The notes below the pieces were generated by a model that made no database searches, was not told where the DNA came from, and saw only the letters and a list, made by a program, of their open reading frames with translations. Position numbers and translations under genes: made by a program. Below, piece by piece: positions 46,777 through 64,000 of a DNA stretch of 64,000 nucleotides (position 1 is the stretch's first letter; every line of letters starts with the position of its first letter). This stretch comes from an uncultured Kordia sp. (GTDB lineage: Bacteria > Bacteroidota > Bacteroidia > Flavobacteriales > Flavobacteriaceae). The stretch spans positions 124,001 through 188,000 of the forward strand of contig NZ_CANLEA010000008.1 in NCBI RefSeq assembly GCF_947489565.1. Reading direction: 5' to 3'.

Positions 46777-46867
46777 GTCTAAAGGAGTATAAAATTACTG
46801 CTTTAGCATTTTTTAATTTCTTGATTAATTCAAGAATTGAGGTTGCAATCAGTTCAAATTTTTCCTC
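46777..46867 (-). promoter_or_regulatory. probable SAM-II riboswitch in the metK leader
   Basis: Minus-strand RNA reads GAGG, then AAAAAUUUGAACUGAUUGCAA, then CCUC (46866-46838: P1 closed by GAGG/CCUC), followed by a 7-bp insert hairpin UUCUUGA / UCAAGAA and the conserved AAAUGCUAAAGCAG (46812-46799). This is the SAM-II aptamer order (UUUGAAC...GAUUGCAA then AAAUGCUAAA). CUAAAG of the pseudoknot strand (46801-46806) can instead pair with CUUUAG (46779-46784), giving a plausible switch. It starts ~5 nt after the predicted transcription start. Confidence 0.75.
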
Positions 46868-46877
46868 AAAACAGGTG

Positions 46878-46973: not shown

Positions 46974-47006
46974 TTTGGATATTAAATAATTATGACTTTA
47001 CCTTTG
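46974..47006 (+). promoter_or_regulatory. promoter of the metYX-thrA transcript
   Basis: TTTG (46974-46977), 21 nt, TACCTTTG (46999-47006): perfect consensus. Expected start near 47013, only ~13 nt before the first leader-peptide ATG. Confidence 0.8.
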
Positions 47007-47025
47007 TAGCAAACAAAGACAAAAA

Positions 47026-47106
47026 ATGTTTAAAAAAGTTTCAAATATGATGTGTTGTATGATGTGTAGCAGAAATGCCGCAGAGGACACTATTGTATTG
47101 CACTAA
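47026..47106 (+). CDS. Met/Cys-rich leader peptide 1
   Basis: 26-codon ORF starting just after a consensus promoter: 'MFKKVSNMMCCMMCSR' then 'NAAEDTIVLH'. Five Met (including start) and three Cys; the codons MMCCMMC are consecutive (47047-47067). The stop is 27 nt before an intrinsic terminator. Segment GCAGAGG (47080-47086) in its coding region is complementary to CCTCTGC in the terminator's 5' arm (47136-47142). This is the arrangement of a translation-dependent attenuator: starvation for Met-tRNA or Cys-tRNA would stall ribosomes on the run and favour anti-termination. The gene is too short to be called by standard pipelines. Confidence 0.8.
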   Translation: MFKKVSNMMCCMMCSRNAAEDTIVLH

Positions 47107-47132
47107 CTTTTTAAAAGCATCTCAATAATTTC

Positions 47133-47162
47133 AAGCCTCTGCAATTGCAGAGGCTTTTTTCA
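47133..47162 (+). terminator. attenuator terminator 1
   Basis: Perfect palindrome AAGCCTCTGC-AATT-GCAGAGGCTT followed by T run. Confidence 0.9.
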
Positions 47163-47199
47163 TGATTATATTTTAAGTTAATTTTTTTTTCAAAAACCA

Positions 47200-47328
47200 A
47201 TGAGTAAAATTTTTCAAATAGCGACAATAGAAATGACAATGACAATGTGTTGTTGTATGATGGTTATGTGCATGATGATGTGCTGTAGCCAAGTTCGCTA
47301 TTATCGAAAAGTTCCAGATAAATACTAA
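47200..47328 (+). CDS. Met/Cys-rich leader peptide 2
   Basis: 42-codon ORF: 'MSKIFQIATIEMTMTM' then 'CCCMMVMCMMMCCSQ' and a charged end 'VRYYRKVPDKY'. Nine of the 12 codons from Cys16 to Met27 plus flanks are Met or Cys, a composition most unlikely by chance. It follows attenuator 1 without an obvious promoter of its own, so the transcript must pass terminator 1 first. It is followed after 17 nt by terminator 2. A possible anti-terminator segment GAAAAGTTCC (47306-47315) is only partly complementary to the terminator arm. Confidence 0.8.
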   Translation: MSKIFQIATIEMTMTMCCCMMVMCMMMCCSQVRYYRKVPDKY

Positions 47329-47345
47329 CCCATTTATCATTTTAT

Positions 47346-47392
47346 AAAAAAGGTCCTTTTGGTAATGCACTTCCAAAAGGGCCTTTTTTTAT
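47346..47392 (+). terminator. attenuator terminator 2
   Basis: 13-bp stem AAGGTCCTTTTGG / CCAAAAGGGCCTT (one G-U pair) followed by seven T. Confidence 0.9.
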
Positions 47393-47540: not shown

Positions 47541-48836
47541 ATGAGTACACAAAAATTCGCAACAAAAGCATTACATTCAGGACACGACACTACGAAAAAC
47601 GGAGGAACAAGAGCAGTGCCAATTTATCAATCTACAGCGTATGTATTTAACAATTCAGATCATGCGTCTAACTTATTCGCCTTAGCAGAACCGGGCAATA
47701 TTTACACAAGAATCAACAATCCAACAAATGATATTTTAGAACAACGTTTGGCTGATTTAGAAGGTGGAATCGCTGCAGTAGTAACTGCCTCAGGAACTTC
47801 TGCAATTGCAACAACATTACTTACTTTACTAAGAGCAGGAGATCATATTGTAGCTTCTAACAGTTTGTATGGCGGAACGTATAACTTGCTAAATGTAACT
47901 TTACCAAGACTCGGAATTACCACCACATTTGTAGATCCTTCGGAAGAAAACAGTTTCACAGATGCCGTACAAGAAAACACAAGAGCCGTTTTTATTGAAT
48001 CATTAGGAAATCCAAAATTAGATGTATTAGACATCGAAGCGATTTCAGCACAAGCAAAAGCAAACAAAATTCCACTCATTGTCGATAATACAGTTGCCAC
48101 TCCATACTTGTTGAATCCTATCAAATACGGCGCAAACATTGTCATTCACTCACTTACAAAATACATTAACGGAAACGGAACTGCCTTAGGCGGTGCTATT
48201 ATTGATGCAGGAACGTTTGATTGGACCAACGGAAAGTTTCCAGAATTTACAGAACCATCTGCAGGATATCACGGATTAATCTATAGCGAAGCTCTAAAAG
48301 AAGCCGCTTTTATTGCCAAAGTTCGCATCGAAGGATTGCGCGATTTTGGTGCAGCTTTAAGTCCGTTCAATACATTTCAAATCATTCAAGGACTAGAAAC
48401 TTTGCCAATTCGTATCAAACAACACAGTCAAAATGCACTAGCATTAGCACAGTGGTTGCAAACACAAGAAGCGGTAGCTTGGGTAAATTATCCAGGATTA
48501 GAAACAAGTGATTACAAAGCATTGGCCGATAAATATTTGCCAGAAGGACAAAGCGGAATTGTAACTTTTGGAATCAAAGCAGGTTATGAAGCAGCAAAAC
48601 GCATTGCAGACGAAACAAAAGTATTCTCGCTCTTAGCCAATATTGGAGATACAAAATCACTCATCATTCATCCAGCAAGTACGACACACCAACAATTGAC
48701 AGCGGAACAACAAGTTTCAACAGGTGTAACACAAGATTTAATTCGCTTATCTGTCGGATTGGAAAATATTGAAGATTTAAAAGTGGATTTACAAACAGTA
48801 TTTGACAAAATTACAGCAGGAATTCCAGCATCATAA
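47541..48836 (+). CDS. metY: O-acetylhomoserine sulfhydrylase
   Basis: 431 residues, the size of MetY, of the Cys/Met-metabolism PLP family. 'FATKALHSGHDTTKNGG', 'TRINNPTNDILEQRLADLEG', 'GTSAIATTLLTLL', PLP Lys in 'VIHSLTKYINGNGTALGG' (~210), and 'IHPASTTHQQL'. The enzyme condenses O-acetylhomoserine with sulfide to give homocysteine (or with methanethiol to give Met). It is the first structural gene after the double attenuator, with metX and thrA close downstream, so it makes the whole branch Asp to homocysteine in one transcript. Confidence 0.93.
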   Translation: MSTQKFATKALHSGHDTTKNGGTRAVPIYQSTAYVFNNSDHASNLFALAEPGNIYTRINNPTNDILEQRLADLEGGIAAVVTASGTSAIATTLLTLLRAGDHIVASNSLYGGTYNLLNVTLPRLGITTTFVDPSEENSFTDAVQENTRAVFIESLGNPKLDVLDIEAISAQAKANKIPLIVDNTVATPYLLNPIKYGANIVIHSLTKYINGNGTALGGAIIDAGTFDWTNGKFPEFTEPSAGYHGLIYSEALKEAAFIAKVRIEGLRDFGAALSPFNTFQIIQGLETLPIRIKQHSQNALALAQWLQTQEAVAWVNYPGLETSDYKALADKYLPEGQSGIVTFGIKAGYEAAKRIADETKVFSLLANIGDTKSLIIHPASTTHQQLTAEQQVSTGVTQDLIRLSVGLENIEDLKVDLQTVFDKITAGIPAS

Positions 48837-48846
48837 AGCAGCTATT

Positions 48847-49836
48847 TTGAGACAGAAAATAACACATATCACCATATCAGATTTCTTTACCGAAAGCGGT
48901 GCGTACTATCCAAACTTAAAATTGAGTTATCAGTTAGTAGGTTCGGATAGTGCAGATGCGCCAATTGTATTGGTAAATCATGCGCTCACAGGAAACTCGG
49001 AAGTTACAGGCGAAAATGGTTGGTGGAATAAACTGATTGGCGATGGAAAATGTATTGATACCAATGCGTTTAAAATTTTAAGTTTTGACATTCCAGGCAA
49101 TGGATTTTCAGAAGAAACAGGATTGATCAAATTTTATAAAGATTTTGTGGCGAGAGATATTGCAAAACTCTTTATCCGCGGATTGGAAAATTTACAAATT
49201 GACTCACTTTTTGCAGCAATTGGCGGATCATTAGGTGGCGGAATTGCATGGGAAATGGCCGTTTTAGAACCAAATTTGATTCAAAACTTAATTCCAATTG
49301 CAGCCGATTGGAAGTCTACGGATTGGTTGATTGGCAATTGCTTTTTGCAAGAACGCATTCTAGAAAACTCTAGCAATCCCATTGAAGATGCTCGTATTCA
49401 CGCCATGTTATGTTATCGAACGCCTTTCTCTTTCAAAGTGAAATTTCAACGAACGAAACATAAAGAAAAAGAAATATTCAATACGGAAAGTTGGTTGGCG
49501 CATCATGGAAAAAGATTGCAAGAACGCTATCAATTAGCAGCTTACAAACTCATGAATCAGCTGTTAAAAACCATCGATATCACAAGAGGAAGAGCATCAC
49601 TTGAAAAAGTAGCTTCAAAAATTAAAGGAAACATTCACATTATAAGTATCAATAGTGACATCTTTTTTTCACCAGACGAAGACATTGAAACCTTCAGAAG
49701 GCTAAAACGTGTCAAAGAAAACATATATCACGACGAAATTCAGTCCATTCACGGACACGATGCATTTTTAATAGAATACGGACAATTGAGTCTGTTACTC
49801 AGAAACATATTTCAAGTTCAAAAATCATCTATATAA
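48847..49836 (+). CDS. metX: homoserine O-acetyltransferase
   Basis: 329 residues from TTG 48847, which is 11 bp after metY stop; a frame from TTG 48802 overlaps metY and no ATG is available, so the start is not certain. Alpha/beta-hydrolase fold: oxyanion-side 'VLVNHALTGNSEVTGENGWW', nucleophile elbow 'AAIGGSLGGGIAWEMA' (Ser), catalytic Asp in 'IISINSDIFFSPDE', and His in 'SIHGHDAFLIEY'. It transfers acetyl from acetyl-CoA to homoserine. It has the gene order of a Met operon with metY and thrA. Confidence 0.88.
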   Translation: MRQKITHITISDFFTESGAYYPNLKLSYQLVGSDSADAPIVLVNHALTGNSEVTGENGWWNKLIGDGKCIDTNAFKILSFDIPGNGFSEETGLIKFYKDFVARDIAKLFIRGLENLQIDSLFAAIGGSLGGGIAWEMAVLEPNLIQNLIPIAADWKSTDWLIGNCFLQERILENSSNPIEDARIHAMLCYRTPFSFKVKFQRTKHKEKEIFNTESWLAHHGKRLQERYQLAAYKLMNQLLKTIDITRGRASLEKVASKIKGNIHIISINSDIFFSPDEDIETFRRLKRVKENIYHDEIQSIHGHDAFLIEYGQLSLLLRNIFQVQKSSI

Positions 49837-49848
49837 CAATACAACGCT

Positions 49849-52251
49849 ATGAAGATTTTAAAATTTGGCGGTAAATCACTCGCTAACGGAAAAGGAATCA
49901 AAAACACGATTCAAATCATAAAAGAAAAAGCAACACAACAAGAACATTTTGCAGTGGTATTATCTGCTCGCGGAAATGCTACAGATGAATTATTGGAAAT
50001 GTTAGAAAAAGCAATCAATAAAGAATCGTATCACGAACAATTAACGGCATTCAAAGCTTATCAAAGTCAAATTGATCGCTCTATAGATTTTTCTGAAGAA
50101 TTCACAATCTTAGAAAATCTATTTCAAGGAGTTTCTTTATTAGGTGATTACAGTGAAAAAATAAAAGATCAAGTAGTTTCCCAAGGAGAACTTATTTCTG
50201 CAAAGTTGGTGACGAGTTTACTCAAAAAAGAAGGTGTGAATGCACATTTTACAGATACACGAAACCTTATAAAGACAGACGATTCTTTTGGAAATGCACG
50301 TCCACTTGATGTGATTTCAAGAAAAAATGTGATCAATCATTTTAAATCACATAACGGAACAACGGTGAATATTGTAACAGGATTTATCGGCTCAAATCAA
50401 AACAATGAAACCACAACTTTGGGCAGAAATGGAAGCAATTATACAGCAGCATTGTTGGCTAATTTTTTAGATGCGGAAGAATTACAAAACTATACACATG
50501 TAGATGGAATTTTTACAGCGAATCCTGATTTGGTAGCTGATGCGCGAAAGATTTCTGAATTATCTTTTAATGAAGCAAACGAATTGGCAAACTTTGGAGC
50601 CAACATTCTACATGCAAAAACAATTGTTCCACTGATTGAAAAAAATATTCCATTGCGAATTTTAAATACATTCAATACAAATGACGAAGGAACTATTATC
50701 AAGCAAAAAACGCAGACGAAAGGAATCAAATCGATCTCTGTATTAGACAATGTAGCGCTGATCAACTTAGAAGGAAGAGGTTTGTTGGGAAGAGTAGGCG
50801 TAGATGCGCGAATTTTTAAAACGATGAGTGAAAATGATATCAACGTAAGCATCATTTCGCAAGGTTCGTCGGAACGTGGTATCGGATTGGTGATTGATGC
50901 TGACAAAGCTTCACAAGCAATTATTGCACTTGAAAGAGAATTTGAAAATGACTTTTATACCAAAGATGTCAATAAAATTTCGGTGATAGATGATGTCGCA
51001 GTCATTTCAATTGTGGGACAAGATTTAAGTGAATTTCACAAACCATACAACGCTTTGATTAAAAATCAAATCGTTCCGATTCTGTTCAACAATACAGTTT
51101 CAGGGAAAAATGTGAGTTTGGTGGTTAAAGAATCGCAACTACACAAAGCTATCAATGTAATTCACGGACAAATTTTCGGAGTTTCTAAAAAAATAAACAT
51201 TGCTGTCTTTGGGAAAGGTTTGGTTGGAAGTACACTATTAGATCAAATCGTACGAAGTAAAAAAGACATTTTAGACAAAAATAACATTAAGTTAAATGTG
51301 TTCGCTGTGGCGGATTCACAACAAGTATATTTAGACAAAAACGGGATTGCTGACAACTGGAAAGAAACATTTTCAAAAGAAAAAGTAGCCTATACAGTGC
51401 AGCAAATCATCGATTACGCAAAAAACAATCACTTAGAAAATTTAATCGCTGTTGACACGACAGCAAGCAAAGATTTCATACATAATTATATAAGTTTAGT
51501 TAATAATGGCTTCGATTTGGTTTCGGCAAATAAGATTGCAAACACAGTTGAGTACTCATTTTATGATACGTTGCGAAAAGAACTGAAAAAGCATCAAAAA
51601 AATTATTTGTACGAAACCAATGTAGGAGCTGGTTTACCATTGATTGATACGATAAAATTACTGCATAAATCGGGCGAAAAAATCAATAAAATTCGCGGTG
51701 TATTCTCCGGTTCGTTAAGTTACTTATTCAATACATTCTCTGTAGAAGAAGTTGAATTTAGTACGGTTTTACAACAAGCTTCGGAAAAAGGCTATACAGA
51801 ACCAGATGCTCGTGAAGATTTATCGGGAAATGATGTAGCTCGTAAATTATTAATCCTTGCCAGAGAATTGGATTTAAGAAAAGAATTCTCAGACATCACG
51901 ATTCAAAATTTATTACCAGCACACTTACAAGCGATTAGTTTGGCGCAATTCAATAAAAATGTTACAGATTTAGATCAAACCTATAAGCTCATCAAAGCCA
52001 ATCAGCAAAAAGATCACGTCTTACGTTATGTAGGTGATTTATCGACAGAAACAGGAATCTTAGAAGTAAAATTGATTTCAGTACCAAGCAATAGTGCATT
52101 GGGACAAATAAAAGGATCCGATTCTATTTTCGAAATTTACACAGAAGCCTATAAAGAGCAGCCGCTAGTCATACAAGGTGCAGGCGCAGGTGCAGCAGTA
52201 ACAGCAAGAGGTGTTTTTGGAGATATTTTACGATTAACGGAGAAGCTTTAA
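49849..52251 (+). CDS. thrA: bifunctional aspartate kinase / homoserine dehydrogenase
   Basis: 800 residues. Aspartate kinase: 'MKILKFGGKSLANGKGI', 'VVLSARGNATDELLE', 'FIGSNQNNETTTLGRNGSN', with regulatory ACT-like domains at ~300-450 ('NDINVSIISQGSSERGIGLV'). Homoserine dehydrogenase: 'INIAVFGKGLVGSTLLDQIV' (NAD(P) loop), 'VSANKIANTVEY', 'YETNVGAGLPLIDTIKLL', 'GSLSYLFNTF' and 'SGNDVARKLLILAREL'. It supplies homoserine for the Met and Thr branches; position in the Met transcript suggests methionine control of this isoenzyme. It begins 12 bp after metX. Confidence 0.95.
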   Translation: MKILKFGGKSLANGKGIKNTIQIIKEKATQQEHFAVVLSARGNATDELLEMLEKAINKESYHEQLTAFKAYQSQIDRSIDFSEEFTILENLFQGVSLLGDYSEKIKDQVVSQGELISAKLVTSLLKKEGVNAHFTDTRNLIKTDDSFGNARPLDVISRKNVINHFKSHNGTTVNIVTGFIGSNQNNETTTLGRNGSNYTAALLANFLDAEELQNYTHVDGIFTANPDLVADARKISELSFNEANELANFGANILHAKTIVPLIEKNIPLRILNTFNTNDEGTIIKQKTQTKGIKSISVLDNVALINLEGRGLLGRVGVDARIFKTMSENDINVSIISQGSSERGIGLVIDADKASQAIIALEREFENDFYTKDVNKISVIDDVAVISIVGQDLSEFHKPYNALIKNQIVPILFNNTVSGKNVSLVVKESQLHKAINVIHGQIFGVSKKINIAVFGKGLVGSTLLDQIVRSKKDILDKNNIKLNVFAVADSQQVYLDKNGIADNWKETFSKEKVAYTVQQIIDYAKNNHLENLIAVDTTASKDFIHNYISLVNNGFDLVSANKIANTVEYSFYDTLRKELKKHQKNYLYETNVGAGLPLIDTIKLLHKSGEKINKIRGVFSGSLSYLFNTFSVEEVEFSTVLQQASEKGYTEPDAREDLSGNDVARKLLILARELDLRKEFSDITIQNLLPAHLQAISLAQFNKNVTDLDQTYKLIKANQQKDHVLRYVGDLSTETGILEVKLISVPSNSALGQIKGSDSIFEIYTEAYKEQPLVIQGAGAGAAVTARGVFGDILRLTEKL

Positions 52252-57076: not shown

Positions 57077-57160
57077 ATGAGAAACATTCAAACCAAAAAT
57101 ATCATGCGCTGCACTTGTATGTGTTGTTCAAACATTTTTCTAAAACCAAAAGGAACGTGA
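57077..57160 (+). CDS. Cys-rich leader peptide 3
   Basis: 27-codon ORF in the cysN-sulfite reductase gap: 'MRNIQTKNIMRCTCMCCSN' then 'IFLKPKGT'. Four Cys and two internal Met fall within eight codons (57104-57127). It ends 26 nt before an intrinsic terminator. CAAAAGGA at its 3' end (57147-57154) is complementary to TCCTTTTG (57192-57199), which covers part of the terminator's 5' arm. This is a third attenuator of the same design, controlling read-through into the sulfite reductase/siroheme genes, chiefly by cysteine. Confidence 0.8.
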   Translation: MRNIQTKNIMRCTCMCCSNIFLKPKGT

Positions 57161-57186: not shown

Positions 57187-57226
57187 AAAAGTCCTTTTGA
57201 AACACCATTCATTAGGACTTTTTTAA
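57187..57226 (+). terminator. attenuator terminator 3
   Basis: 9-bp stem AAAAGTCCT / AGGACTTTT with 18-nt loop and T run. Confidence 0.85.
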
Positions 57227-57261: not shown

Positions 57262-59355
57262 ATGCAAAGCTTTAGAACAGAAATAGAAAATCCAATTGTT
57301 GAAAAAGATATCATCGAGTTGGAACAAAAAATCCGCTTATTCAAAGAAGGAAAAGTAGATGAAGAAAAATTCCGTAGTCTACGATTGGCCAGAGGTGTAT
57401 ACGGACAACGTCAACATGGCGTACAAATGATTCGCATCAAATTGCCGTACGGAAAAGTTTCTAGTGCGCAATTACACAGAATTGCAGATGTAGCTGACGA
57501 ATATTCCACTGGAAGATTGCACATTACGACGCGTCAAGACATTCAAATTCATTATGTGAGTTTGGACAGAACGCCAGAATTATGGGCACAACTTGAAAAA
57601 GACGATGTCACATTACGCGAAGCTTGCGGAAATACAGTACGTAACATTACGGCAAGCGCTACTGCAGGAATTGACATTGACGAACCGTTTGATGTATCGC
57701 CATATGCAGATGCAGTTTTTAAATTCTTTCTACGAAATCCAATCTCGCAAGAAATGGGTAGAAAATTTAAAATCTCCTTTTCTGCTACTGATAAAGATTC
57801 GGCGCTTAGTTATATTCATGATTTAGGATTTATTGCTAAAATTCAAAACGGAATTCGAGGTTTTAAAGTAATGCTCGGAGGCGGATTAGGTTCGCAGCCA
57901 AGACATGCAGATGTATTATATGAATTTTTAGCTACAGATGAAATCATTCCGTTGACAGAAGGTGTTTTACGCGTATTTGATCGTTATGGAGAACGCGCCA
58001 AAAGAGGAAAAGCACGTATGAAATTCTTAATTAAAGATTTAGGCTTAGAAGCTTTTGTTGGATTAATTGATGCAGAACGAAAAGCATTGTCAAACACAAA
58101 AGTTTCGATAGAAACTGCTGTCTTTGAAGTTGCACCAACATTTCAAGAATCTAATATTGAAACAGTTGCTATTGAAGACAACGAAACCTTTGAAGCATGG
58201 AAACAAAGCAATGTCATTCCGCAAAAGCAACAAGGATTATTTGCTATTGGAATTCGCGTGCCTTTGGGAGATTTCTATACAGATAAAGCTCGTTTGTTAG
58301 CAGACATAATCAAAACCTATGCTGCAGATGAATTACGATTTACATTGCGTCAAAACATACTAATTCGTCATGTAAAAGAGGAATTACTTCCAATACTTTA
58401 TCAAAAACTAAAAGCATTGGGCTTTACCGAAATTGGCTATAATAAATTAATAGATATTACAGCATGTCCTGGAACCGATACTTGTAATTTGGGAATTGCG
58501 AGCAGTACAGGAATCGCTACAGAATTGGAAAAAGTAATTGCTGCGGAATATCAAGAATTCATCACTACAAAAAATATTACCATCAAAATAAGTGGTTGTA
58601 TGAATGCTTGTGGACAACACAATATGGCAGAAATTGGTTTTCAAGGAATGACCATAAAATCTGGAAAATTGGTAGCGCCAGCTTTGCAAATACTCTTGGG
58701 AGGCGGAATCATAGGAAACGGGCAAGGACGTTTTGCCGACAAAGTATTAAAAATTCCAAGCAAACGCGGACCAGAAGCATTGCGTACCATTTTAAATGAT
58801 TTTAAAAATAACGCTGAGGCGGAAGAATCTTTCTCAGATTACTACCAGCGAAAAGAAAAAGCGTATTTCTACACTTTCTTAAAACCGTTATCAGATAGTT
58901 CTGAACTCTCGGAAGATGATTTTATTGATTGGGGAAATGAATCACCATACGTAAAAGCAGTTGGAATTGGAGAATGTGCTGGTGTTGTCATTGATTTGGT
59001 GGAAACGCTATTGTTTGAAAGTGAAGAAAAAATTGAAAATGCAGCGGAAGCACTAAAGAATCAGTTGTATAGTGACAGCATTTATCATGCGTATGCGGCC
59101 ATCGTGAATGCAGCCAAAGCACTTTTACTTTCTGAACAACAAAAAACGAATTCGCATGCAGCCATTATCAAACAATTTGATGCCGTTTTTGTAGAAACGA
59201 AAAAAATAAATTTACCAAATGATTTTTCAACATTCGTATATCAATTGCAACAAAATTCGCCAAGTGAAGCGTTTGCAAAAAAATACCTAAATGATACCAT
59301 TTGGTTTGTAGATCAACTCAAAATATACAGAAAGGAGGAGTTGACACATGCATAA
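57262..59355 (+). CDS. assimilatory sulfite reductase (siroheme/4Fe-4S) with C-terminal HEPN-like extension
   Basis: 697 residues. Two ferredoxin-like and two siroheme/4Fe-4S half-domains: 'YGQRQHGVQMIRIKLPYGKV', 'LHITTRQDIQIHYVSL', 'REACGNTVRNITASATAG'. Cluster-ligand Cys are in 'TACPGTDTCNLGI' (C-x5-C) and 'SGCMNACGQHNMAEIGF' (C-x3-C). The last ~150 residues ('AEALKNQLYSDSIYHAYAAI', 'NAAKALLLSEQQKT') form a helical HEPN-like region not found in the classic enzyme. It reduces sulfite to sulfide with six electrons; the ferredoxin-NADP reductase at 60759 suggests a ferredoxin donor. It sits downstream of attenuator 3. Confidence 0.9.
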   Translation: MQSFRTEIENPIVEKDIIELEQKIRLFKEGKVDEEKFRSLRLARGVYGQRQHGVQMIRIKLPYGKVSSAQLHRIADVADEYSTGRLHITTRQDIQIHYVSLDRTPELWAQLEKDDVTLREACGNTVRNITASATAGIDIDEPFDVSPYADAVFKFFLRNPISQEMGRKFKISFSATDKDSALSYIHDLGFIAKIQNGIRGFKVMLGGGLGSQPRHADVLYEFLATDEIIPLTEGVLRVFDRYGERAKRGKARMKFLIKDLGLEAFVGLIDAERKALSNTKVSIETAVFEVAPTFQESNIETVAIEDNETFEAWKQSNVIPQKQQGLFAIGIRVPLGDFYTDKARLLADIIKTYAADELRFTLRQNILIRHVKEELLPILYQKLKALGFTEIGYNKLIDITACPGTDTCNLGIASSTGIATELEKVIAAEYQEFITTKNITIKISGCMNACGQHNMAEIGFQGMTIKSGKLVAPALQILLGGGIIGNGQGRFADKVLKIPSKRGPEALRTILNDFKNNAEAEESFSDYYQRKEKAYFYTFLKPLSDSSELSEDDFIDWGNESPYVKAVGIGECAGVVIDLVETLLFESEEKIENAAEALKNQLYSDSIYHAYAAIVNAAKALLLSEQQKTNSHAAIIKQFDAVFVETKKINLPNDFSTFVYQLQQNSPSEAFAKKYLNDTIWFVDQLKIYRKEELTHA

Positions 59356-62185: not shown

Positions 62186-64000
62186 ATGAGATCAACCCTA
62201 TGGCTTGCATTAATTTTTGTATGTTTTTTAATTTCTGAAACCCAAGCTCAATGTAGTGGAATTAACAGAATTCAATGCTCAACAGCTGCACCTACAGTTG
62301 TAGGAAATAGTATTAGTTGTACACCTCCGGCCAATCAAGGAGGACGAAGAAATTTTGAAGTCACCAATATGATTGCTGGTGCAACGTATAGACTTTCCAA
62401 TTGTGGATCTGGCTTTGATACACAAATGACAGTTAGAGATGCATCAGGAACTTTTGTAGCATTCAATGATGATAATGGACCTGCTTGTACTGGAACAGCA
62501 GCTTCTATTGACTTTACACCAACAACTACAGGAGATTATCGAATTCATTTGAACAGATACAACTGTGCAACGACAAATAACCTGAATGGAGATATCGTTG
62601 TTACACTACTTTCAACTTCTTCAGGACCGGCAAATGACGATTGTGGAACTGCCACTTCGCTATCCGTGAGTCCAACAAGTACCTGTGTAACACTTACTGC
62701 TGGAGACTCTTCAACAGCAACTGAAAGCATATCAGCAATTAGTTGTGGAGGTTTTACAGGAAATTCAGATGATGATGTTTGGTATAGTTTTGTAGCAACT
62801 GCAACGAATCATGATATCACTGCACGTCCGGGAACATTAAGTGATCTCGTAGTAGATTTACGTTCAGGTGCATGTGATGGAACAAATATAGATTGTGCCG
62901 ATAATACAACAGGAGCAAATGATGAAGTTATCAATGCAACTGGCTTAAGTATAGGAACCACCTATTATGTACGTGTATACAGTTATGGAGGTGCTGCAAA
63001 TGCTGGCACTTTTGATATCTGTGTCACAACACCAATAGTAATTCCATCAAACGACGATTGTGCCAATGCAATAGCATTAGGAGTAAGTCCTACAGATACG
63101 TGTGTTACGAGTGCTTCAGGAACTACCGAAAATGCAACTCAAAGTATCGCTGCTATCAATTGTGGTGGAACTACAGGAGATGCAGATGATGATGTTTGGT
63201 ATAGTTTTGTAGCAACTGCTTTTGAACACGATATTACAGTAACTCCAGGAACGTTAAGCAATGCGGTAATAGATTTACGATCTGGTGCTTGTACAGGAAC
63301 AAATATAGACTGTGCCGATATTACTGGAGGCACAAGTTCAGAAGTAATAAACGCAACAGGACTCACTTTAGGAGCTACCTACTATGTCCGCGTATATAGT
63401 AGGGGAAGCAATACTTCGCAACAAGGAACCTTTGATATCTGTGTCACAACACCTCCGCAACCACCACTAAATGACGATTGTAGTAATGCTACTGCTTTAA
63501 CGGTAAGTGGTACAACGTGTACAACCAGTGTTTCTGGAACAACGGAGTTAGCAACTCAAAGTATTGCCGCTATTAGTTGTAATGCTGCAACTGGAGATGC
63601 AAACGATGATGTTTGGTATAGTTTTACAGCAACAGCAGCAAATCATGATATTACAGTAACGTCAGGAACCTTAACAAATGCAGTAATAGATTTACGCTCT
63701 GGTGCTTGTACAGGAACAAATATTGATTGTGCAGATGCCACAACGGGTACAAATAATGAAGTGCTCAATGCCACAGGCTTAAGTATAGGAACAACCTATT
63801 ATGTGCGTGTATACAGTTTTGGAAGTACAGGAAATGAAGGTACGTTTGATATCTGTGTTACAACGCCAATAGTTCCTCCTGCAAATGATGACTGTACCAA
63901 TGCAACTTTACTAGGCGTAAGTCCAAGTAATACATGTGTAACAAGTGTCTCAGGTACTACTGTAGATGCTACTCAAAGTATAGCAGCTATAAGTTGCAAT
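62186..64000 (+). CDS. large secreted protein with ~138-residue Cys-rich repeats (3' truncated)
   Basis: The frame from ATG 62186 is open to the window edge (605 codons) without a stop. Signal peptide 'LWLALIFVCFLISETQAQ'. Residues ~20-145 form a PPC-like beta domain ('FEVTNMIAGATYRLSNCG', 'DTQMTVRDASGTFVAFND', 'TTTGDYRIHLNRYNC'). From residue ~150 there are repeats starting 'NDDC' at 62633, 63050, 63470 and 63884 (417, 420 and 414 bp apart), each with 'DDVWYSF', 'VIDLRSGACTGTNIDCAD' and 'YYVRVYS'. They contain regularly placed Cys and would form surface or secreted adhesin-like or enzyme-associated domains. A C-terminal secretion tag is expected beyond the window. Confidence 0.85.
   Translation, partial: MRSTLWLALIFVCFLISETQAQCSGINRIQCSTAAPTVVGNSISCTPPANQGGRRNFEVTNMIAGATYRLSNCGSGFDTQMTVRDASGTFVAFNDDNGPACTGTAASIDFTPTTTGDYRIHLNRYNCATTNNLNGDIVVTLLSTSSGPANDDCGTATSLSVSPTSTCVTLTAGDSSTATESISAISCGGFTGNSDDDVWYSFVATATNHDITARPGTLSDLVVDLRSGACDGTNIDCADNTTGANDEVINATGLSIGTTYYVRVYSYGGAANAGTFDICVTTPIVIPSNDDCANAIALGVSPTDTCVTSASGTTENATQSIAAINCGGTTGDADDDVWYSFVATAFEHDITVTPGTLSNAVIDLRSGACTGTNIDCADITGGTSSEVINATGLTLGATYYVRVYSRGSNTSQQGTFDICVTTPPQPPLNDDCSNATALTVSGTTCTTSVSGTTELATQSIAAISCNAATGDANDDVWYSFTATAANHDITVTSGTLTNAVIDLRSGACTGTNIDCADATTGTNNEVLNATGLSIGTTYYVRVYSFGSTGNEGTFDICVTTPIVPPANDDCTNATLLGVSPSNTCVTSVSGTTVDATQSIAAISCN

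Follow-up and report, generated by a model that had tools for sequence, protein, structure and literature searches.

Tandem Met/Cys leader peptides upstream of metY-metX-thrA in Kordia as probable ribosome-mediated transcription attenuators

Upstream of metY-metX-thrA in an uncultured Kordia sp., two short ORFs with runs of Met and Cys codons, each followed by a predicted intrinsic terminator, most likely act as serial ribosome-mediated transcription attenuators that sense the charging of elongator tRNA-Met and tRNA-Cys; we put the probability of this reading at about 0.86. The analysis concerns a 64,000-nt stretch of this genome (6.42 Mb), here called the window. Comparison with related sequences shows what the units consist of and that they are conserved; in leader 1 it also shows that mutually exclusive pairings covary. 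Beyond Kordia, it seems reasonably probable that such leaders, often two in a row, make up a tRNA-charging regulon of sulfur amino-acid genes in Bacteroidia (metY, metX, metZ, sulfite reductase and cysE-cysK-cysJI), in which the Met:Cys ratio of the run is tuned to the pathway and which has repeatedly exchanged its leaders with SAM riboswitches.

Results and Discussion

Two leader-terminator units precede metY

A sequence-only reading of this DNA had described a promoter, two Met/Cys-rich ORFs and two terminators at 46974-47392, and all of these are seen in the sequence as described (Table 1). Its list of parts was read correctly and has to be extended by a 1:2 stem, the small hairpin X and a third leader at 57077-57160, which it omitted. 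In an alignment of four Kordia genomes the promoter motif TAnnTTTG is found in 4/4 and the TTTG in 3/4; the assignment of 46974-47006 follows what we take to be the Bacteroidota promoter consensus. Both ORFs do end close to strong terminators, with 26 nt (leader 1) and 17 nt (leader 2) between stop and hairpin, and GCAGAGG of ORF1 (47080-47086) is, as had been proposed, an exact complement of the terminator 1 5' arm (CCTCTGC, 47136-47142). That the Met/Cys runs are non-random was also borne out: the best six-codon stretch in the 420 nt is 6/6 Met/Cys, whereas among 2000 dinucleotide shuffles the maximum was five, reached once. Among related loci, at least five of six codons were Met/Cys in 44/51 leader loci versus 0/50 S-box loci.

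Table 1. Coordinates of the metY leader region, the genes downstream and the third leader in the window
Feature	Position	Strand	Sequence and basis
Bacteroidota-type promoter	46974..47006	+	TTTG 46974-46977; TACCTTTG 46999-47006
Leader peptide 1 ORF	47026..47106	+	MFKKVSNMMCCMMCSRNAAEDTIVLH; control codons MMCCMMC; 26 codons
1:2 stem segment 1 (part), leader 1	47043..47049	+	extends into first control codon; covariation and predicted fold
Small hairpin X	47069..47078	+	GCA-GAAA-UGC; immediately 5' of antiterminator strand 1; predicted in the window
Putative antiterminator strand 1	47080..47086	+	GCAGAGG; pairs with 47136-47142; covariation, frames
Segment 2b, leader 1	47087..47097	+	ACACTATTGTA; partner of segment 1; covariation
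Predicted intrinsic terminator 1	47133..47156	+	AAGCCTCTGCAATTGCAGAGGCTT, then T-run; covariation
Leader peptide 2 ORF	47200..47328	+	MSKIFQIATIEMTMTMCCCMMVMCMMMCCSQVRYYRKVPDKY; run CCCMMVMCMMMCC; 42 codons
Leader 2 segment 1	47217..47224	+	AATAGCGA; 8-bp complement of 47295-47302
Leader 2 segment 2	47295..47302	+	TCGCTATT; complement of 47217-47224
Putative antiterminator strand 2	47305..47311	+	CGAAAAG; one mismatch to CUUUUGG
Predicted intrinsic terminator 2	47346..47389	+	stem covaries in 25 non-Kordia leader 2 sequences
metY, O-acetylhomoserine sulfhydrylase	47541..48836	+	TIGR01326, 626 bits, cut-off 495
metX-like homoserine acyltransferase	48802..49836	+	best TIGR01392, under curated cut-off; start codon uncertain
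thrA-type aspartokinase/homoserine dehydrogenase	49849..52251	+	781 bits, cut-off 726
Leader peptide 3 ORF	57077..57160	+	MRNIQTKNIMRCTCMCCSNIFLKPKGT; between cysN and sulfite/nitrite reductase-family gene
Putative antiterminator strand 3	57146..57154	+	CCAAAAGGA; faces TCCTTTTG of hairpin 57187-57224
Predicted terminator 3	57187..57224	+	imperfect hairpin AAAAGTCCTTTTG / TTAGGACTTTTTT; aligned in 6 Kordia genomes
Sulfite/nitrite reductase-family gene	57262..59355	+	NirA and sulfite reductase families, each under its curated cut-off

A SAM-II riboswitch (RF01726, 55.9 bits) lies at 46793-46873 on the minus strand, 5' of the divergent metK, so that one intergenic region holds both a SAM sensor and the leader peptides. 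Rfam found no SAM-I or SAM-II on the metY strand before metY in the window, the SAM-II there serving metK, and no T-box in the window at gathering thresholds. Just 5' of ORF2, CAAAAACC at 47191-47198 can pair with an arm of terminator 2 and is kept in four aligned Kordia genomes; it is possibly a second antiterminator strand.

Distribution of the leaders and exchange with SAM riboswitches

A MetY search of 60 related genomes was used to read the best 30 loci, 11 of them from Kordia, and these together with the best 80 named loci, minus six duplicates, gave 104 unique loci. Both leaders with their terminators were present before metY in 11/11 Kordia genomes; terminator 2 of L008 and L011 was below the threshold of the script and is visible in the printed sequence. 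Among the 104 loci, 25 had at least two leader-terminator units, 25 had one, 50 had the S-box proxy GCAACC without a leader, four had neither by threshold and none had both. These thresholds undercount, as the second unit of, for example, L008, L011, L089 and L110 was seen only by eye, and a leader-like ORF was found by eye in two of the four loci that had neither (L024 and L103). Conservation of the Met/Cys ORF and terminator before metY homologues, which the sequence-only reading had put forward as a check, was thus found, with at least one unit in 50/104 loci. Carriers by name include, besides Kordia, many Flavobacterium, Christiangramia gaetbulicola and Salegentibacter salinarum. A covariance model of leader 1 gave 19 matches with E<=6.1e-8 in 249 genomes of the family, 16 before metY, two before metX-thrA and one at a contig end; at least five of the genomes matched are also within the model's own alignment. 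Weaker matches at loci where the window's met proteins were unmatched (L130, L131, L133-L135, L137, L139 and L140) were dropped. Two other weak matches are a MetX-like gene (L136) and the L024 locus (L138).

Rfam analysis of all 50 proxy loci identified 47 as SAM-I (RF00162) on the metY strand before metY and two as SAM-II (L028 and L105), while one (L019) was without a riboswitch. The L019 sequence starts 383 nt before metY and its label is doubtful; the genome it comes from (G017) has a leader at the end of another contig. Conversely, a SAM riboswitch before metY on its strand was found in 0/19 leader loci tested with Rfam (1.5 to 4 kb each). In 10 of these 19 an S box is present further downstream, showing that SAM-I has not been lost from those organisms. 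Such an S box lies downstream of metY in L038, L056, L060, L061, L063, L064, L069, L085 and L092, and directly 3' of metY in L022. On a tree of the 104 MetY proteins (102 labelled) the leader/S-box label changes at least 6 times, whereas shuffled labels give a mean of 34, and three of the changes are forced by well-supported branches; the count is rough, because the tree was built by a fast method, many of its branches are weak, near-copies aid clustering and the L019 label is doubtful. The tree gives no order as to whether leader or S box is the older state.

RNA anatomy of the two leaders

Leader 1 sequences were aligned in a narrower set (A2, 35 sequences) and in a wider set (A4, 36 sequences: 19 of the 35 in A2, 15 found by covariance model and two by eye). 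Leader 1 of L098 was left out of both since it is nearly identical to L092 and L094, and was kept in the ribosome model below; L024 is in neither alignment. In A2, 90.7% of the cells of the 1:2 stem and terminator were paired and double-changed cells numbered 29, versus 7.1 in shuffles, and the antiterminator helix was without covariation because it is almost invariant there. In A4 the same helix was 89.6% paired and had 13 double-changed cells versus 2.4 in shuffles, of which 0/500 were as high. The covariance model held the 1:2 stem and terminator without the antiterminator helix, so the covariation of the helix does not come from the model. A4 also gave, over the 1:2 stem and terminator, 56 double-changed cells versus 15.5 (18 of the 56 within the 1:2 stem), where a bias towards the search model is possible. 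In the window, 2/11 pairs of the leader 1 1:2 stem fail.

The letters of the terminator and the antiterminator strand are matched: CCGCTGC-type terminators are paired with the strand GCAGCG in 7 sequences, one CCCTTGC terminator with GCAAGGG and one CCTCTATAG with CTGTAGGGG, so that three segments change jointly. Across the leaders, antiterminator strand 1 falls in different reading frames (Ala-Glu, Pro-Gln-Arg or others), and the neighbouring CTATTGYA is found in varying frames or 3' of the stop; what is conserved is thus the RNA and not the peptide. From the end of strand 1 to the stop there are 15-18 nt in the three Kordia leaders measured. By inspection, the small hairpin before this strand seems to be kept in other genera with changed letters.

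For leader 2, alignment A3 excludes Kordia, L030, L092, L094, L098 and L103. In 25 non-Kordia leaders the antiterminator helix was paired in 90.9% of cells with zero double changes; strand 2 is CCAAAAG or CCGAAAG in 18/25, mostly opposite CUUUUGG, and two inner hairpins covary. In Kordia, strand 2 reads CGAAAAG with one mismatch (L003 alone has CAAAAAG) and is the weakest element there. In leader 2 of L092, L094, L097, L098 and L104 the stop codon precedes the antiterminator strand. The predicted 1:2 hairpin of leader 2 in the window (47217-47224 with 47295-47302) has letters, those of segment 1 included, that are not shared by all four aligned Kordia genomes. By eye, AACAATAGCAAA and TTTGTTATAGTTT seemed to form a convincing 1:2b stem in non-Kordia leader 2, but this stem failed the shuffle control and was rejected.

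Ribosome position and capture of the terminator arm

In full-length equilibrium folding the terminator won in nearly all states of the leaders tried (13 folded, 11 over the whole length). The switch must therefore be kinetic, and folding was stopped at the terminator 5' arm. In a stricter model of this kind RNA was free only 3' of the ribosome. The predicted capture of the 5' arm in leader 1 was on average 0.93 with a stalled ribosome, 0.11 with the ribosome at the stop and 0.45 without a ribosome, and exceeded 0.5 in 37/37 leaders when stalled and in 0/37 at the stop. Leader 2 gave means of 0.81, 0.14 and 0.78, respectively, with capture above 0.5 in 38/40 and 2/40. A ribosome-free leader 2 is thus predicted to read through and a ribosome-free leader 1 to be mixed. 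Capture changed little when the downstream footprint, otherwise 15 nt, was set at 12 or 18 nt. The difference in capture between the last control codon and the stop was 0.83 versus 0.11 in shuffled sequences for leader 1 (18/37 leaders, 40 shuffles) and 0.68 versus 0.11 for leader 2 (21/40 leaders, 40 shuffles). In the window, the modelled switch falls two codons past the final Met/Cys codon in leader 1 and four codons past it in leader 2.

A looser model allowed RNA to pair across the ribosome. The arm was then captured at the stop in 13/37 sequences of leader 1 and 11/38 of leader 2, nine of each being from Kordia, and the switch was absent in 18/20 Kordia units tested, with capture even at the stop codon. 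The proposal of ribosome-mediated attenuation made in the earlier reading stands well for leader 1, with runs across genera, covariation in A4, varying frames and a stall/stop switch. For leader 2 it is favoured in Flavobacterium and is less firm in Kordia, where there is the mismatch and a looser model without a switch.

Proposed mechanism and alternatives

In the mechanism that we infer, transcription would start ~15 nt before ORF1, judged from the position of the promoter, and a ribosome would load on leader 1 of the nascent transcript. With ample Met and Cys it would reach the stop and cover or pass the antiterminator strand, the terminator would form and transcription would halt before metY. 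When Met or Cys is scarce, the ribosome would stall in the Met/Cys run and disrupt the 1:2 stem, and the freed antiterminator strand (GCAGAGG for leader 1, a CCAAAAG-like strand for leader 2) would capture the 5' arm of the terminator. The polymerase would then proceed to leader 2 and meet this choice again before metY-metX-thrA, and a third, Cys-richer unit would gate the sulfite-reductase-family gene. Translation and stalling on the leaders, termination in vivo and the serial mode of action are presumed; Met and Cys would presumably each carry a weight of their own, and two gates would presumably be of benefit and may, as the earlier reading suggested, sharpen the response.

The features expected of an attenuator are found in these sequences. 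There is a short ORF with codons for the product amino acid (Met directly, Cys as sulfur partner), and a computed intrinsic terminator between ORF and structural gene. Antiterminator and terminator are mutually exclusive, the former being predicted to be exposed by a stall and hidden at the stop, which in Kordia depends on the model. In leader 1 the 1:2 stem overlaps the control codons; in leader 2 outside Kordia such a stem is unsupported.

The close similarity of the peptides within Kordia could also mean that the ORFs encode functional small proteins rich in Met and Cys, such as metal- or thiol-binding ones, followed by ordinary terminators. We regard this as highly improbable, as nucleotides past the run are kept despite the change of frame, some leaders stop earlier, the sulfite-reductase leaders have little in common except the Met/Cys run, and 18/18 of the readable loci among the 19 strongest model matches precede metY or metX-thrA. 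The leader RNA and its terminator might instead form an unrecognised metabolite riboswitch, with SAM or homocysteine as possible ligands, the ORFs being incidental. SAM-I or SAM-II does occupy the same place in related loci and the leaders contain covarying stems, but Rfam gave no aptamer in the leader at gathering thresholds, what is conserved is the codon run and the switch strands, and in leader 1 of the window the modelled switch sits right behind the run; there is very little chance that this explanation is correct.

Regulation by translational or Rho-dependent coupling, through access to the start codon or of Rho, with the hairpins merely insulating, has a precedent in mycobacterial Cys leaders, which in the available part of the source are without terminators and for which a Rho-dependent mode was considered (PMC1262725). 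In the metY leaders, however, hairpins and T-runs follow the ORFs, the leader 1 stems covary with the antiterminator strands, and in the window metY starts ~150 nt past terminator 2, which makes such coupling very unlikely here. Serial attenuation by the two leader peptides is the reading that we prefer.

Relation to known systems

The trp, his, leu, thr and ilv leaders of Proteobacteria are built from a 1:2 stem, an antiterminator and a terminator. The metY leaders resemble these classical attenuators in having a short ORF with product codons, a 1:2 stem and antiterminator/terminator alternatives, and leader 1 gives a sub-threshold match to the Rfam Leu_leader (33.7 bits, threshold 50). They differ by mixing Met and Cys codons, by two serial units, by their occurrence in Bacteroidota and by an antiterminator strand that lies beside the 1:2 pairing, whereas it lies inside in classical attenuators. 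Cys-operon leaders of mycobacteria were reportedly the subject of work by Canestrari in 2020. According to the accessible parts of the sources, Cys codons occur in a short upstream ORF of cys operons in mycobacteria (PMC1262725) and in uORFC-8-2, which precedes cysS in Rhodobacterales together with a terminator (PMC8632094). These are like the metY leaders in being short ORFs before sulfur or Cys-tRNA genes, but as described there they hold Cys only, are single and belong to other phyla and targets. In Streptomyces lividans a short Met/Cys ORF, metL, was proposed before metNIQ, without a typical terminator (PMC8079986). It shares with the metY leaders a short ORF with Met and Cys before methionine genes; unlike them, it is presented in the part of that paper at hand without an antiterminator or conservation.

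SAM-I (S box, RF00162) holds the same position before metY in related lineages (47/50 proxy loci), but senses SAM directly, where the metY leaders would sense tRNA charging. From the same family, one sentence on Flavobacterium psychrophilum reports leader-peptide attenuation upstream of amino-acid operons (PMC9723704); its section names pheA, hisG and others without a methionine gene, and 'methion' is absent from the main text. For Bacteroides thetaiotaomicron, the part of the source available holds one sentence on sORFs. The suggestion that the arrangement is undescribed thus holds for the literature searched, in which Met/Cys tandem attenuators were not found, and does not extend to supplements and most subscription papers. 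Ribosome-mediated attenuation itself is of a known kind; the combination of Met and Cys specificity, tandem layout, phylum and riboswitch exchange is new in so far as we did not find it in print.

The metY locus offers a testable case in which unlike sensors, a SAM riboswitch and a putative tRNA-charging leader peptide, take each other's place at a single gene. It also provides a putative natural tandem attenuator from a phylum on whose attenuation the searches turned up little literature. If correct, our reading would account for how many Bacteroidota regulate methionine and cysteine synthesis, and would allow many tiny ORFs rich in Met and Cys to be annotated as leaders.

Leaders upstream of other sulfur genes

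A model of non-Kordia leader 2 matched in the window leader 2, leader 1 and, weakly, leader 3 (E 0.022). The leader 3 ORF has at best 5/6 Met/Cys codons, its terminator was missed in the window by the terminator script, and the modelled switch is partial (0.91 to 0.41). The sulfite/nitrite reductase-family gene was found in 6/11 Kordia genomes at E<=0.001, with no match at this level in G001, G002, G005, G006 and G010. The antiterminator strand and terminator of leader 3 align in 6/6 Kordia with the gene, and the Cys-rich ORF was recovered by script in four of these and by eye in L149 and L151 (GTG start).

In a sample of the class we read the upstream regions of 40 of the 68 genomes with a sulfite-reductase homologue, mostly the best-scoring ones. 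In 16/40 a terminator accompanied an ORF in which 4 to 6 of 6 codons were Met/Cys, and these regions span ten family groups besides that of the window; one further region had the ORF only and 22/40 had neither. L201 met the script criterion, was judged a chance ORF and was excluded from the 16. In L206, L216 and L217 the units lie ~1 kb upstream of the homologue. From the weak matches L180-L185 two were kept: L184, with tandem leaders before a sulfite-reductase homologue, and L185, with a leader before metZ (63% identity) and a small gene, presumably OsmC-like, between them. In one Flavobacterium-group genome (G523) a copy of leader 1 with a terminator lies upstream of cysE-cysK-cobA-cysJ-cysI-like genes, of which several score under the curated cut-offs, on the same contig as the tandem before metY. 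Among 19 such units, antiterminator complements were somewhat stronger than in shuffled sequences (11.2 versus 8.7, s.d. 1.7), the comparison being with shuffles rather than GC-matched controls; single units were less convincing.

The share of Cys in the best eight-codon window was 0.41 (leader 1, n=36) and 0.38 (leader 2, n=41) in metY leaders versus 0.61 (n=20, 17 class loci) and 0.63 (n=5, Kordia) in sulfite-reductase leaders. In the window, a poly-Cys ORF at 63548-63646 on the minus strand (MICCCCCKTIPN...) has no terminator, is probably due to chance and was discarded. At L165 (G038, from another family of the order) an ORF that ends MFCCSCCCC, 436-568 nt before a sulfite-reductase homologue, has only a weak hairpin, which overlaps the ORF, and resembles a poly-Cys leader.
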